The position numbers and the translations under genes were made by a program. Positions 8,400-14,611 of a stretch of 64,000 nt of DNA are shown one piece after another; position 1 is the stretch's first letter, and the number at the start of each line of letters is the position of its first letter. Under the pieces are notes generated by a model. The model ran no database searches. It saw only the letters and a program-made list of their open reading frames with translations, and was not told where the DNA came from. The DNA is from Rugalucina vietnamica (lineage: Eukaryota > Mollusca > Bivalvia > Lucinida > Lucinidae): NCBI GenBank assembly GCA_964017185.1, contig OZ024872.1, positions 41,794,188 through 41,858,187 on the forward strand, read 5' to 3'.

Positions 8400-9024
8400 A
8401 TTTCAGGGGAAATAACTCGTCTGGCGTGAATGTCAAACGAAAACGCATTTTCATTTTGCGCAAAAACATATCATCTTGCAGATTTTACCACATTTGATCT
8501 GAAAAGAGAAGGTATGATAAATATATAGAGGTCATTTGTTCATATCGATTATGCACTCATTTGTAACTACGCCCCCACCCCCGGAAAATAGCCCTGATAG
8601 CCAGGACTATATAGTAAGTAAATTCTTTATTTTACGAGGGTTGCCCAATTGGCAGAGCCAATCTTCCTTGGGGCCCTCAATATCTTTCCTTCCAGCAATT
8701 CCCTGCCAAAAAGCCCTGCACTGCTCTGGCAACAGATGGTAAAATCTCCTGGGTCCCCCACCCCCACTATTCCTGACCCTCCCCCAGGGTTGGGGGAGCG
8801 GGGGTTAGGGCTGTGGAGTGTGGTTACAAATGACTAGTGCATTTATTGACTTTTTCACCTTTCTGAAAAAAGACAGTTGTAAAGCTCTGTCTGCTGATGT
8901 GGGGGTATTGGGTTGTTTTGGCCTTGAGGCGTTTCGGCCGTGAGGCGTTTTGGCCGCGGTCGTTTCGGCCGGAGTCTTTTCGGCCCTGGGTCATTTTGGT
9001 CTGAATTTTTTATCACTCATATAC
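8400..9024. other. Non-coding; contains a TTTCGGCC-type repeat array
   Basis: 8911-9000 holds five degenerate units of the form GGCGTTTCGGCC. This resembles one terminal array of the complex-TIR elements seen elsewhere in the window, but no inverted partner was found. Confidence 0.4.
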
Positions 9025-9379
9025 GGGTGCGTAGAATTACCAAAACACACCAAAACACCGGAACACACTGGTAATTACCAAAACACACTTATATTTTGTA
9101 TTATCATAATAATCTAGTACTGTAGTATATTTATGAGACTCAGATGATAAAAAGTTATATTCTCTTTTGATTGATGTCAGTTGTAAGTGTGATAAATATT
9201 ATTTATTTGGTGTGTTTTGGTCTGCCTTGCATATAATTAATTGTTATTGATTTTCACACCCTATCATCAAATTGTTGACATTATTAATGTACCGTGGTAA
9301 TTGGCTTACCTGATCAGATTGGCCTTACAACAATGAAACCTGTGCATGTAAGTTAGTAAAGTCAATACGTTAAACCAAA

Positions 9380-9645
9380 AAGACAAAACAAAATTTTGCC
9401 CATGCAATAATAGAGATTTTTAGCTGTAAAAATGATAATTTCATCGGAAAAACGGATATTTTATAACAAACATTGATTGTGGGTACTTGTTAGAACCGCC
9501 TCGTAGAGGCTGTTCAAACGAGTAGCCCATGACAAAAACCTCCATGCAATATACATATATAAGACACCTAAATACCATAAACAATTTTGTCTCAGCGTCT
9601 CGACGCGACTGAAAAAACTTGCCCATGTAATATACAGATTTTTTT
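9380..9645. mobile_element. Family B hairpin element, decayed
   Basis: Has the half palindrome ATTGATTGTGGGTACTTGTT, then AACCGCCTCG, plus CCCATGCAATA-type ends. The second palindrome arm is broken. Confidence 0.45.
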
Positions 9646-10365
9646 TTTAGCTGAAAATAAACAACAACAAAAAAAAAAAAACCGAATATATCATTGCAAA
9701 AATACGGCGCATACTCGCACACACAATGCACGAGTGCAAGATGCATGAGTATGATGAGATGAACTCTTTGATTAGAAATCATACTATTTCGTTAAATACT
9801 GTAGAAGAAAACGAGGATGTAAATTGTTGCGTTTCTTTTGCATTTAAGTATATATTAACATGTAAAATTTCATTTGGTTATTTAAAATATAAAATTTGAA
9901 TTCGGTAGACATCTAGAAATGTAAACGGTAGCTTTTTAAAGAATACCCATGGCTAAATCAGTGTCCTAAAATATAACTCCTTGGATACACACTAGTCACG
10001 TGCCAGGTAATAAACAGTCTGAGCTTGAATACACACAGGTAATAAATGGTCTGCAACACCTTTCAATAACTCGAATGACACCCAATACACATATTCAAGC
10101 ATTTATTTTTGATACAGATGGTTTTTGTGGTCAAGATAGAATTTTAAGACAGAATTTTAAGCTCAAGATGAATTATATGTTACAATATTTAAAGAAAGAA
10201 AGAAAGAAGGACAGACAGACAGACAGAAAAAAAGAAAGAACGAATCATTACGAAAATATGTCCATGTAATACTTGTATGTAAAGAAATAAGCATATGTAC
10301 AAGATGTGCATGTACCTAATATTCGTACATGCCTAAAGCGTCAAACGTTACTTGTGGTTCGAACA

Positions 10366-10500
10366 TTACAAAGAACATGCCCATGCAATATACAGAGAAT
10401 TTTTCATCATAAAAAATTGATATTTTTTAGCGGAAAATTTCTGATATCTTTAATATTTTTGCTTAAAACATAGATTGTGGGTTAGAACCGCCTCGCCGAG
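10366..10500. mobile_element. Family B hairpin element, half copy
   Basis: Runs from a CATTACAAAGAACATGCCCA end to the palindrome centre at GAACCGCCTCGCCGAG and stops. The other half is absent, as though broken at the hairpin tip. Confidence 0.6.
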
Positions 10501-10522
10501 AGAACATATATACTGTCATCTG

Positions 10523-10821
10523 CATTACGAAAACATACCCATGCAATAAACAGTTTTTTTAAGCTTTAAAAATTGAAAATTTTCAGCTAAAAATTTTGAT
10601 GTTTTTCTTATTTTTGCTCAAAACATAGATATTTTTGCTCAAAACATTGATTGTGGGTACACGTTAGAACCGCCTCGCCGAGGCGTTTCTAACGTGTACC
10701 CACAATCAATGTTTTGGAGTAAAAATAAGAAAAATAGGTAAACCCCTGCATCCCCAGTTTTGCTATAAAACTGGGGTTAAAGGGGGTATACATAACACGG
10801 ACATGTTTTCCAATCCTGATG
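10523..10821. mobile_element. Family B hairpin element, best-preserved copy
   Basis: The central palindrome covers 10641-10715: two arms of about 37 nt beginning AAAACATTGATTGTGGG and meeting at GCCTCGCCGAGGC, with one or two mismatches. The outer inverted ends are CATTACGAAAACATACCCAT and its inverted relative ending ACATGTTTTCCAATCCTGATG. Confidence 0.8.
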
Positions 10822-11033
10822 TGAAGCTGATATGCGCAAGTACCTAAGAAAGAAAGAAAGAGCAGCTTACAATCTAACACAGAACATATATTCTGTCCTC
10901 TGAAACTAATATGCGCAAATGTTCAAGATGTACATGTACCTAGTATTCGTACATGCATAAAGCGTCAAACGTTTACATGTTTTTCAAATGAATTAAAATA
11001 CACAACTTATTACAAATTTGATGCGCATGTACC

Positions 11034-11036
11034 TAA

Positions 11037-11079
<43 letters not shown>

Positions 11080-11128
11080 ATTAATTAAATAATTAATTAA
11101 TTAATAAATAAATAAATAAATAAATAAA
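11034..11128. repeat. AAAT microsatellite
   Basis: About 95 bp of AAAT units with an AATT-rich interruption at 11082-11104. Confidence 0.9.
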
Positions 11129-11587
11129 CATTGTCACCTTTAAAAAGCCAAAAATGCAGTGTACTAATGCGCACACATTCGCCACGCGGCATAGAATAAA
11201 CACAACCAAAAGAATCATGAATCAACAGACAAACTTCATAAGCAACCACAAAGTTCAAATAAATATATAATAAGCAAATAAATGCTTAATGCGGAAAATA
11301 TAGAAATTCTCGACGTGCATCATCTTAATGAGCGCAGGTTATAGGCCCATTTTTCATGCGATTCATTGAAATCAGTATTTTCTCGTTATGTAAATGCTTG
11401 CAATTACAACGCAGGACTGGTGTTGAATTTATGTTATTGATAACTTTCAGATATATATTGAACTTTTACAAGTGATTTTGAGGACCCATATTTAATAGAT
11501 TTGAAAAAAAAGTTGATGATAGGTTAAAAGGTACTGTAATATTAAATACATTTAATCAAATTATTATGTCAATCGTCATGTCCACAT

Positions 11588-11745
11588 CGGTGCACGACTT
11601 TTCGTCGAAAACCCTTTGGTCGAATTGACATTTGATAGAATACGTAAGACACTTGGTCGCAAAAACCGATCAACTACGACACTTCGTCGATTTTTTAAGA
11701 GTAAAAGTACGACACTTTGTCGAAACAAATCCGACCATACGTCGT
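11588..11745. repeat. Unpaired TIR-like array with CGACACTTNGTCG units
   Basis: Begins GGTGCACGACTTTTCGTCG and contains five degenerate ACGACACTTTGTCG units. The first ten bases match the right terminus of the 26208-26821 element. No inverted partner was seen, so it may be a one-ended remnant inside the 4.2-kb element. Confidence 0.5.
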
Positions 11746-12236
11746 ACTTTCATTGTTTTTTGTTTTTTTTTCAAATCGAGTTATTACCGTTATCTATGCT
11801 GGAAAAATACAATGGGATAAATAGGTAGGTATGCTAGCTGAAAAGGTATGAGTTACTGTTCAAAGAGTCTGTTCTTGGATTTCCACATAGGTGTCAGTTC
11901 GTATATCAAGGTAATTCATCTGTTTATTGTATTGGCATGTGCTTATCTATTAGATTACAGTATGTCGATAAATACACAGCGGCCATAAAGTAGGACTGGC
12001 ATGTGAAAGCTTTATTGTGCAATAGATAGAGGCGAAGCATGTGCGTTCATACATATACGAGATTGGTAACGTTGCGCAAATAAATTTATTAGATCTATAA
12101 CTTGATTCGTAAAATACTATAACGTTGATTTTTTGACAATTCCATAAGTTTCAAGAACAATTTAAAATTTTATTCAATTAAGGTTTCTTTGATGTATAGA
12201 ACTTCGTCCTAAACTAATTAATTTAAGTTCCAGTCT

Positions 12237-12339
12237 GATTGGGATCAATAATCACTCCTTCGTTGACGGATAATTACACCAATTAAAAGTCTGAGTACAT
12301 CTACTCGACTCAATAGGTGTCAACTGGGTATTATTTAAG
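12237..12339 (+). promoter_or_regulatory. Putative CCAAT/TATA promoter of the SGNH gene
   Basis: GATTGG (inverted CCAAT) at 12237-12242 and a TATA-like TATTTAAG at 12332-12339, 45 bp before the ATG. The positions fit a compact polymerase II promoter, but the motifs are short. Confidence 0.4.
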
Positions 12340-12376
12340 CCATTGTTTCTCAAACTTCAACATAACCACGATCGGC

Positions 12377-12906
12377 ATGGCTAGATTCTGTTTGATGGGC
12401 GACTCCTACGTCAAGAGGCTACAGAACTTCTGTGACGGCGACTTTCATTTTCCGGGACCTACAAGATTTCTTCGACAAGGGGGCTGCGCTGCGACGAACT
12501 CGACGATACTATGAAAAAAAAAATGAAACAAGCCGCTGCAAAATCTGACTACGTCTTCCTCTCCATCGGCGGCAACGACATCAGTCCCATCTCCCATCCA
12601 GAAGTCATCTTCAACAACATCCGTGACCTGGTAGAAAAGCTAGAAGAAACTGACGTGCGTCGAGTGTATATTTCAGAAATTCTACCACGAGGCGATTTTT
12701 CAAAAAGTAAACCCCGCGGTCTAACCAAAGCAAAGTTCAACAGCGACAAAAAAGCTATAAACAAGTTACTGTTCAAGGAATACGGCACGCGGGTCATCAA
12801 ATTCCATGACATACGATATCCTAGAGACTACCACAGCGACAAGGTCCATTTATCAGAACCAACGACAAGACAGCAAAAAATGTGGCCTTCGAAAATACTT
12901 CTTTAG
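12377..12906 (+). CDS. SGNH/GDSL-hydrolase-like protein with one frame break
   Basis: Intronless gene of about 176 codons. It starts MARFCLMGDSYVKRL, with the GDS nucleophile block at residues 8-10. It continues with FLSIGGNDI (the GxND block) and ends with DKVHLSE (the catalytic D-x-x-H block). All SGNH landmarks are present in order. The frame breaks near 12480 at a run of five G; the upstream frame stops at 12514, while the downstream frame carries the rest. This is a one-base indel or a sequencing error. SGNH/esterase domains are known in ORF1 of some CR1/L2 LINEs, but no reverse transcriptase lies nearby. The gene lies inside the 9025-13269 element, with a CCAAT/TATA-like promoter before it and a histone-type 3' stem-loop 47 nt after the stop. 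Substrate unknown; it could bind nucleic acid or act as an esterase. Confidence 0.75.
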
Positions 12907-12953
12907 AATAAGACTCATATTCTGCGGTTCCCGAGATTAAATGTCTCAAAAAC

Positions 12954-12969
12954 GGTCCTTTTCAGGACC
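12954..12969 (+). promoter_or_regulatory. Histone-mRNA-type 3' stem-loop
   Basis: GGTCCTTTTCAGGACC forms a 6-bp stem with a TTTC loop, followed by AC. It fits the metazoan replication-dependent histone 3' stem-loop consensus GGYYCTTTTCAGRRCCAC at every position. It lies 47 nt after the SGNH stop codon. Confidence 0.8.
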
Positions 12970-12980
12970 ACTATACATTA

Positions 12981-13118
12981 TGAAAGAAGCATTATAATGT
13001 CCAAAATAATTACACATGCACATTCAACCATTCACCTCATCCCTCCTCTTCATGAAAGAAGCCATATAATGTCAAAAATTAACACCTTATCATCAAGTTA
13101 TGACACTATGAAAGAAGC
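12981..13118 (+). promoter_or_regulatory. Three purine-rich elements resembling histone downstream elements
   Basis: TGAAAGAAGC occurs at 12981-12990, 13053-13062 and 13109-13118, each followed by TATAATGT-like sequence. The first is 11 nt after the stem-loop, where the U7-snRNA-binding histone downstream element normally lies. Three copies are unusual. Confidence 0.5.
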
Positions 13119-13307
13119 CTTATATAATGTTAACACCTCATACCTCTTCCCGTTCGCTATACTGACACCTGTGCCATTACACATTTCCAATTACCAATAA
13201 AATAAGTGTGTTTTGGTAATTACCAGTGTGTTCCGGTGTTTTGGTGTGTTTTGGTAATTCTACGAACCGCTCATATACTATGCTTTAATCAAGATAAATA
13301 TGTTATC

Positions 13308-13618: not shown

Positions 13619-13687
13619 TGTTATATCAGGCTAAACCATGCAGTCGGTCTTGCAAGGATACGGGGTATCTATTACAGTATCTAAAAC

Positions 13688-14311
13688 AGCAGTCACACAT
13701 TAGCGTATAAGTGAAACGCGCGCCGGGCGTGTTGAAAAATTGCAAAATTCCACATATGCCAGACACACGTCGGAGACACGTTCGAAACGCATTACGAGTA
13801 CGTTGTGTACGCTTGGTGTACGTCCGGCGCGCGTCGCTGTATGTCGCTAAAAATCATCGCGCATTTCGTGCGCGTTTGGGATCAAAAAATTTTAAACATG
13901 CTTAAAAATTTTCTAGAAGCTCGGCCTCCTTTTTCATACTGGTCTCCCATAGATGTTGTAAATAATTGGTATATTTTATTGCATTATCATATATATATAT
14001 ATGTTTATAGCCTGTGATATATTACATTTGTTAGTCGGTAGGAAAAGCTCCCTGGAGCTTGTGTTAACATGTTATATTGAAAACCGACGTAAAATAAATT
14101 TTACTTGACTTGACTTGGCGTGCCCCGGGCGTGTGACTTATACGTTTCGAATAAGTTCCATGCGCGCTACAGGCACGTTGAATACGCTTCGAACACGTTT
14201 GGCGCACGTTTGAGGCACGCCAGTGTACGCTCCATGCACGTTATCTTCAGCGTGTTGACATTTTTCATACGCCTGGCGCGCGTTTGGGTTATACGCTAAT
14301 GTGTGACTGCT
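13688..14311. mobile_element. Complex-TIR element with CACGTT/GCGCG units, with nested SINE tail
   Basis: AGCAGTCACACATTAGCGTA at the left is inverted exactly at the right end (GCTAATGTGTGACTGCT). The arms carry degenerate GAACACGTTTGGCGC-type units. The core contains TTTTAAACATGCTTAAAAAT. 13918-14110 looks like an inserted SINE 3' part ending in a TTGACTTGACTT tail. Flanks ATCTAAAAC and ATTTAATAG match at 6 of 9 positions, so a decayed 9-bp duplication is possible. Confidence 0.65.
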
Positions 14312-14611
14312 ATTTAATAGACATGACTTTGAACTCAAAAATTTGTGCTGTAATAACCAGATAACAGTGAGATTTTCCATAAAAAACTGTACAATAATTA
14401 GTTTTATGGTATCAGAAACTTCTTTTAACTTTCAGTCCTAAATTAAATCGAAAAACACGCGTTTTCACACTTTATTTCAGTAAATAAAAACAAATCACCA
14501 TAGATTAGCATTGATGATTAAAGACACACGTTTTCATGCCTTGATATTCACATTTACAATAAAATAGCCAACAGTGGCAGCATTGAAATTTTTCGCTTGG
14601 AACTGACCATA

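Follow-up and report, generated by a model that had tools for sequence, protein, structure and literature searches.

The second gene of an OTU-MULE DNA transposon, which encodes an SGNH esterase, appears to end in the processing signal of histone pre-mRNAs; its transcripts would use SLBP and U7 and become replication-coupled mRNAs, a reading to which we assign a probability of about 0.78. Judged by sequence comparison, the signal is real, conserved and common to genes of two DNA-transposon superfamilies and to further multi-copy genes. Use of the histone machinery by these mobile genes is likely, and we infer S-phase timing of their expression. In histone pre-mRNAs, SLBP and the U7 snRNP direct a cut about 5 nt past the stem, and the resulting mRNA has no poly(A) and is both produced and retained during S phase. 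The central part of the original prediction, namely that a gene of a mobile element has a histone-type 3′ end, stands up, with compensatory changes in the stem and a kept spacing of the downstream element.

The stem-loop and its surroundings in the window

The window, which is the whole 64-kb stretch of DNA analysed, contains a histone-type 3′ stem-loop, GGTCCTTTTCAGGACC, at positions 12954-12969 of the forward strand, 47 nt 3′ of the TAG stop codon at 12904-12906 and followed by ACTATA. Its arms GGTCCT and AGGACC form a perfect 6-bp stem around a TTTC loop, and it matches the Rfam family RF00032 (Histone3) with 38.9 bits (E value 7.2e-8, curated gathering cut-off 34), confirming the predicted consensus hairpin 47 nt past the stop and followed by AC. 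It is the sole Rfam match above the gathering cut-off within the window; the bacterial RNA Spy1786666 was rejected at 18.7 bits against a cut-off of 64.

Alignment to the Rfam model, read by analogy to histone pre-mRNA processing, places the predicted cleavage region ACTAT at 12970-12974 (forward strand, as are the following elements). Further downstream, TGAAAGAAGC occurs three times, at 12981-12990, 13053-13062 and 13109-13118. The three copies reported at the outset are thus all present, but only the first lies at the distance of a histone element, and it includes GAAAGA (12982-12987), a putative U7-pairing downstream element starting 12 nt 3′ of the stem; the second lies off this distance in a degenerate tandem repeat. 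A second conserved downstream block, ATTATAATGTC, occupies 12991-13001, in line with an enrichment of AATG across contexts. At 13196-13201, AATAAA is followed by the GT-rich right terminal inverted repeat (TIR) and forms a possible back-up poly(A) site; since a poly(A)-signal hexamer lies within 320 nt downstream in nine of ten close copies scanned, a dual 3′ end is possible.

On the 5′ side, a TATA-like TATTTAA (12332-12338, forward strand) lies 45 nt and a CCAAT 99 nt upstream of the ATG. Both motifs had been predicted, and both recur in the two copies looked at (L040 and L041). TATA-like boxes are also found at -43 to -48 in four further hairpin-bearing SGNH lineages (L031, L033, L037 and L072), and the same pattern found none in L024 and L085. 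A Pfam scan covered ten translations of the window, namely P0001 and nine of the other 15 listed open reading frames. The claim that no histone coding sequence is nearby holds for these ten, among which there is none, and a nearby histone pseudogene was on this ground rejected as the source of the hairpin. Elsewhere in the window, an open reading frame at 20318-20758 matches the Acyltransferase C-terminus (PF16076, E value 5.7e-12) and is probably a host exon.

The transposon and its SGNH gene

The hairpin lies within a MULE-type DNA transposon copy without transposase (9025-13269), whose SGNH gene is on the forward strand. The left TIR (9025-9095, forward strand) is 97% identical to the reverse complement of the right one (13199-13269, reverse strand), each being ~70 bp long, and homology among dispersed copies stops at the right end. 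The identical 9-mers CTCATATAC at 9016-9024 and 13270-13278 represent the left and right target-site duplications. Target duplications are also 9 bp long in the L088/L041 element and 9-10 bp in L089/L043, and inverted ends are also present in the related lineages L026 and L029. Just beyond the right end, an inverted repeat at 13677-14322, with 62-nt arms that are 82% complementary and 522 nt apart, is likely another small element.

Search with the TIR revealed 40 scored matches including the two of the window itself; pairing some of these matches gave elements of between 0.56 and 9.4 kb. Two of the long elements were read, on C3 (52.48-52.49 Mb) and C4 (73.30-73.31 Mb). The former has a 962-residue open frame between its TIRs, matching PF10551 (E value 1.1e-6), PF00872 (1e-5) and the OTU domain PF02338 (1.5e-6), and the latter a 655-residue frame with MULE domains; in both, the SGNH gene sits at the far end from the transposase and on the opposite strand. 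A strict pattern found no histone-like hairpin in the 6.1 kb holding the transposase gene of the C3 element. Having lost its transposase, the copy in the window is non-autonomous; it belongs to an OTU-MULE DNA transposon of the Mutator superfamily.

Genome-wide, a transposase locus is found no more than 12 kb away from 20 of the 75 SGNH loci, compared to a mean of 0.13 and a maximum of 2 in 1000 random runs; here 79 SGNH matches were merged into 75 loci and 77 transposase matches gave 60, with neighbouring fragments, and also the lone fragment C11:8251577, merged or dropped and the length of C16 assumed. The SGNH gene belongs to this transposon type. OTU-domain MULEs such as the cnidarian MuDR-6_HM likewise combine a MULE transposase with an OTU domain; the second, SGNH gene is a feature of the present elements, and the main text of that source contains none of the words GDSL, esterase or hydrolase (PMC6446971). 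Similar to the present case, the Texim genes of fish Helitrons are SGNH hydrolases spread by DNA transposons; they differ in having introns and in their Helitron association, and the words “histone” and “stem-loop” are absent from the text (PMC4021074). An esterase is also described, in the portion consulted, for a mobile element that is a non-LTR retrotransposon (PMC3905857).

In the window copy, the SGNH hydrolase gene (12377-12906, forward strand) is a remnant with a broken frame, the ATG at 12377 being out of frame with the open reading frame at 12436-12906. The remnant matches Lipase_GDSL_2 (PF13472) with 32.1 bits and an E value of 2e-7 (curated cut-off 32.9 bits), compared to 8.6e-11 for L037. 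Its C-terminus differs from that of intact copies, in which the stop lies 13 nt 5′ of the hairpin, and open frames of 207-208 residues are kept in nine other copies. An alignment of 23 SGNH proteins shows the catalytic blocks GDS, G, GxN and DxxH intact in 20, the exceptions being L085, which is without the catalytic serine, L075, which is without the histidine, and L023. Between L012, which represents the lineage of the window, and L024, dN/dS is ~0.13; among recent copies it is 0.75, a rough value based on those pairs, 11 of 21, whose dS exceeds 0. The latter value fits mostly non-autonomous copies, whose constraint looks relaxed. At L071 (C10:43048700-43051700), repeated GGTCCTTTTCAGGACC hairpins with CGAGAGAAGACC downstream accompany SGNH-like frames, with an Rfam match short of E 0.05.

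Carriers of the signal across the genome

In the one genome searched (1.09 Gb), the exact 16-mer hairpin occurs 71 times and its reversed control 0 times, and composite sites, defined as the hairpin consensus followed by A, 6-24 nt and GAAAGA, occur 136 times compared to 0 for the reversed pattern. Among the 100 composite sites listed, ten are histone sites (nine identical to the H1 or H3 strings of L070, plus the H2A gene of L106) and 90 do not have those histone strings; many of the other 36 are probably in the C29 histone array.

The genome’s own histone genes provide the reference. L070 is a 6.58-kb tandem unit of H3, H4, H2A and H1, all with hairpins; exact GAAAGA follows H3 and H1, and variants follow H4 and H2A. 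In three of five own histone ends the exact motif lies 13-14 nt after the stem, compared to 12 nt in the window. Four own histone ends score 35.5-37.2 bits against RF00032, similar to many of the carriers: among 20 chosen sources, one of which is L070, 19 match at E ≤ 0.05 (L071 being the one unmatched) and 14 exceed the cut-off, the 13 non-histone sources among these reaching 34.1-39.4 bits and five below it 24.2-31.2 bits. The carriers resemble replication-dependent histone 3′ ends (RF00032; SLBP/U7) in the six-bp stem, the TTTC or TTTT loop, the AAAC-like 5′ and ACC-like 3′ flanks and the purine-rich element 12-14 nt on, and many of them also in their scores. They differ in encoding SGNH, transposase or unknown proteins, in the possible poly(A) back-up, and in that their processing is predicted. 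The histone cluster and the gene content point to an animal source.

Since the own histone genes carry the signal set, the processing machinery is expected in this genome. An Rfam search of the genome gave no U7 snRNA match, its control being equally silent; a U7 pattern occurred at seven places compared to nine for its reversed control, with no U7-like match in the two fetched; and PF15247, a single 70-residue domain, gave no SLBP match at E ≤ 0.001, again with an equally silent control.

The phenomenon proved wider than the SGNH case first described, as unrelated genes and a transposase share the signal. The latter carries DDE_1 (E value 6.4e-26), HTH_Tnp_Tc5 (8.9e-14) and CENP-B_N (4e-5) domains, computed on two pieces of one broken copy, and we take it to be pogo-type; L098, L110 and L090 are among the loci that hold this gene with a hairpin. 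At least 16 of its 34 protein matches are followed, 36-41 nt past the matched C-terminus, by a hairpin among the sites listed; the 34 matches were set against 20 of the 100 sites, chosen as the two string types of the family and near variants. Five of these 16 have open frames of 473-484 residues. Two other open frames, 473 and 497 residues long, lack a hairpin among the sites listed.

Another carrier family, RxCxQI..LN..RYxxA..EGxRNMFYEFA with acidic tails, is found both dispersed and in arrays and is helical-looking by eye. Further carriers are the MYHNAHRGRG genes and L102, and at eight places (L076, L078, L081, L093, L094, L096, L101 and L103) no open frame was listed beside the hairpin. 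One array, at C5:38.08-38.20 Mb, has 74 Rfam histone stem-loop matches at a spacing of ~1.4 kb; the one unit read (L069, C5:38106000-38107200) encodes a small acidic-tailed protein and scores 39.4 bits, most others scoring 30.2 bits, below the cut-off. The L069 protein has no match in Pfam, PHROGs or PDB searches, and searches of solved structures with two carrier proteins gave nothing at E ≤ 1. Of the 75 candidates that an RF00032 profile search of the genome itself scored, 74 belonged to the C5 array and none was the window site; the count of this search was therefore left aside. A viral source was rejected, as searches with P0001, one other carrier protein and two hairpin-plus-GAAAGA patterns gave nothing confirmed in viral contigs.

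At the promoter, AGTAGGTCAATCC and a TATA box are common to L108 (an SGNH gene), L102 (an unknown gene) and the H2A gene of L070, a block that would add S-phase transcription. In many non-histone carriers, TGTCA/TGACA, often as GTGTCAA, tends to sit slightly 5′ of the TATA box.

The carriers could alternatively have been host genes first, that is, SGNH and other multi-copy genes with S-phase expression and histone-type ends that later became transposon cargo. The H2A promoter block of two carriers would fit such an origin, as would the histone-gene-like tandem arrays or clusters of some carriers (L069 in the C5 array; C4 51.33 Mb; C1 83.53 Mb). Nevertheless, the proximity of SGNH genes to OTU-MULE transposases greatly exceeds random expectation, SGNH copies possess both TIRs and target duplications, and the pogo-type carrier is itself a transposase; we thus regard a host origin as unlikely. 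That unrelated mobile elements of one animal genome, namely the OTU-MULE with SGNH, the pogo-type transposase and the multi-copy genes, with the H2A promoter block in two of their carriers, convergently adopted the histone mRNA pathway, with transposition functions produced only during replication, is in our estimate an even chance.

Conservation of the signal and its predicted use

Among 15 aligned close copies, one of them that of the window, 14 have the exact hairpin and L051 (at the same place as L019) differs from it by two changes. A hairpin is also present in diverged SGNH lineages, at ~60% protein identity (L024-L026) and ~40% (L031, L033 and L035-L038), several of them with other stems. 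By contrast, the sequences read of lineages L028-L030, L032 and L034 lack it. The core of the original prediction passes the refuting condition that had been named for it, absence of the hairpin from other copies, in the close copies and in the diverged carriers.

Changes in the stem are compensatory: 44 distinct 3′ ends, drawn from the 100 of 136 composite sites listed, together have 132 variable cells, of which 131 pair (123 Watson-Crick and 8 G-U), compared to a mean of 12.5 and a minimum of 7 mismatches in 2000 shuffles, which ignore relatedness. Anchored at the hairpin, ten SGNH contexts show an identity of 0.90 in the hairpin and 0.28 across the 20 bases from -25 to -6. Among young copies the contrast is slight, with a variability of 0.9% in the hairpin, 2.0% in the rest of the 3′ region and 1.6% in the coding region.

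The downstream elements follow the same trend. The distance from the stem to the start of GAAAGA is 12-14 nt in seven of ten SGNH contexts, in all 11 other non-histone contexts and in three of four histone contexts, these four being H2A, H1 and H3 of L070 and H2A of L106, with H4 left out. Of 25 contexts, 16 (three of five histone ones) have AATG between +19 and +50, compared to a shuffled mean of 2.5 and maximum of 9, and a second, CCTTATAATGTC-like block is frequent after the GAAAGA element.

At least 35 of 79 SGNH matches have a hairpin within 700 nt downstream, a tally from 100 of the 136 composite and 44 of the 71 exact sites that omitted 17 sites on C29, nine on C10 and C11:36124874. Another 30 matches reach the C-terminus without a detected hairpin, and 13 of these were read: the hairpin was not found in L111-L117 and L032; L029, L030 and L034 lost the 3′ part; L019 has a damaged hairpin; and L031 has one that the pattern missed. 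In some hairpin-less SGNH genes (L113 and L115), AATAAA lies shortly past the stop. As SGNH lineages without the hairpin exist, SGNH function does not need it.

The hairpin might instead be a relic of capture, in which MULEs took up a histone 3′ end, as pack-MULEs take gene pieces, and left the hairpin unused, with polyadenylation at the TIR. Such a relic would agree with the AATAAA and GT-rich tail in the right TIR, with the several SGNH lineages that manage without the hairpin and with the weak conservation contrast among young copies. A histone hairpin in a MULE also has published precedent: the Tm1-HH/Cg-1 elements of the nematode Meloidogyne are, in the available part of the source, MULEs with 9-bp duplications, a histone hairpin and no obvious coding potential (PMC3169594). 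They share with the window element the Mutator-like type, the 9-bp target duplications and the hairpin between TIRs, and the text consulted describes the hairpin outside histones only in this non-coding Cg-1/Tm1 element (PMC3169594). However, Tm1-HH is described there as non-coding and its family as Phantom-type (PMC3169594), whereas here the hairpin follows protein-coding genes, is joined by a GAAAGA element and occurs in more than one superfamily. The matches listed at E ≤ 0.1 for the transposase of L089 include none to FLYWCH (Phantom). The compensatory changes in the stem and the constant spacing across lineages with high or saturated synonymous divergence, and the position of the signal 13-41 nt past the coding ends of unrelated genes, render an unused relic distinctly improbable.

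A role of the hairpin at the level of DNA or transcription, as a terminator, boundary or transposase-binding hairpin with no part for SLBP or U7, has in its favour the location near the element end and an association with gene orientation. SGNH genes on the strand opposite to the transposase have the hairpin in 8 of 8 elements, compared to 1 of 10 on the transposase’s strand, where it is present in L031, was absent on reading L032, L115 and L116, and has no counterpart among the listed sites for the remaining six; two pairs resembling separate neighbouring elements, both hairpin-bearing, were left out, and the pairs are not independent by descent. We consider that the hairpin probably goes with SGNH as its own transcription unit. 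Loop, flanks (AAAC-like and ACC-like) and strand-specific GAAAGA all agree with the RNA signal of histone genes, and non-MULE genes have the same signal, making a DNA-level role very improbable. A chance hairpin is refuted by the counts, with 0.01 hits to the hairpin consensus (at most one mismatch) expected in the window and 71 exact and 136 composite sites compared to 0 reversed.

Based on the preferred reading, use of the histone processing pathway, we propose that SLBP binds the hairpin of carrier pre-mRNAs and the U7 snRNP pairs with GAAAGA, so that the pre-mRNA would be cut about 5 nt past the stem. The non-polyadenylated mRNA so formed would be stable and its translation largely confined to S phase, in proliferating cells, the germline or the early embryo, and the AATAAA of the TIR may provide a back-up 3′ end. 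Being expressed while DNA is replicated would help a cut-and-paste element to gain copies.

According to PMC2642717, no cellular mRNAs other than those of replication-dependent histones are known to lack poly(A), and a hairpin combined with a poly(A) signal is described, in the portions consulted, in worm histone genes and rotifer H2A variants (PMC1924863, PMC2642717). A literature search, with subscription-journal papers and preprints mostly outside its scope, turned up no protein-coding transposon gene for which a histone-type end was reported. If true, the present reading would define a replication-coupled class of non-histone, non-polyadenylated mRNAs, which would break the rule that histone mRNAs are the sole cellular mRNAs without poly(A) and would be invisible to poly(A) RNA sequencing. 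It would also explain how a cut-and-paste element times itself to replication, and the lineages with and without the hairpin would be natural test cases for the role of the signal.
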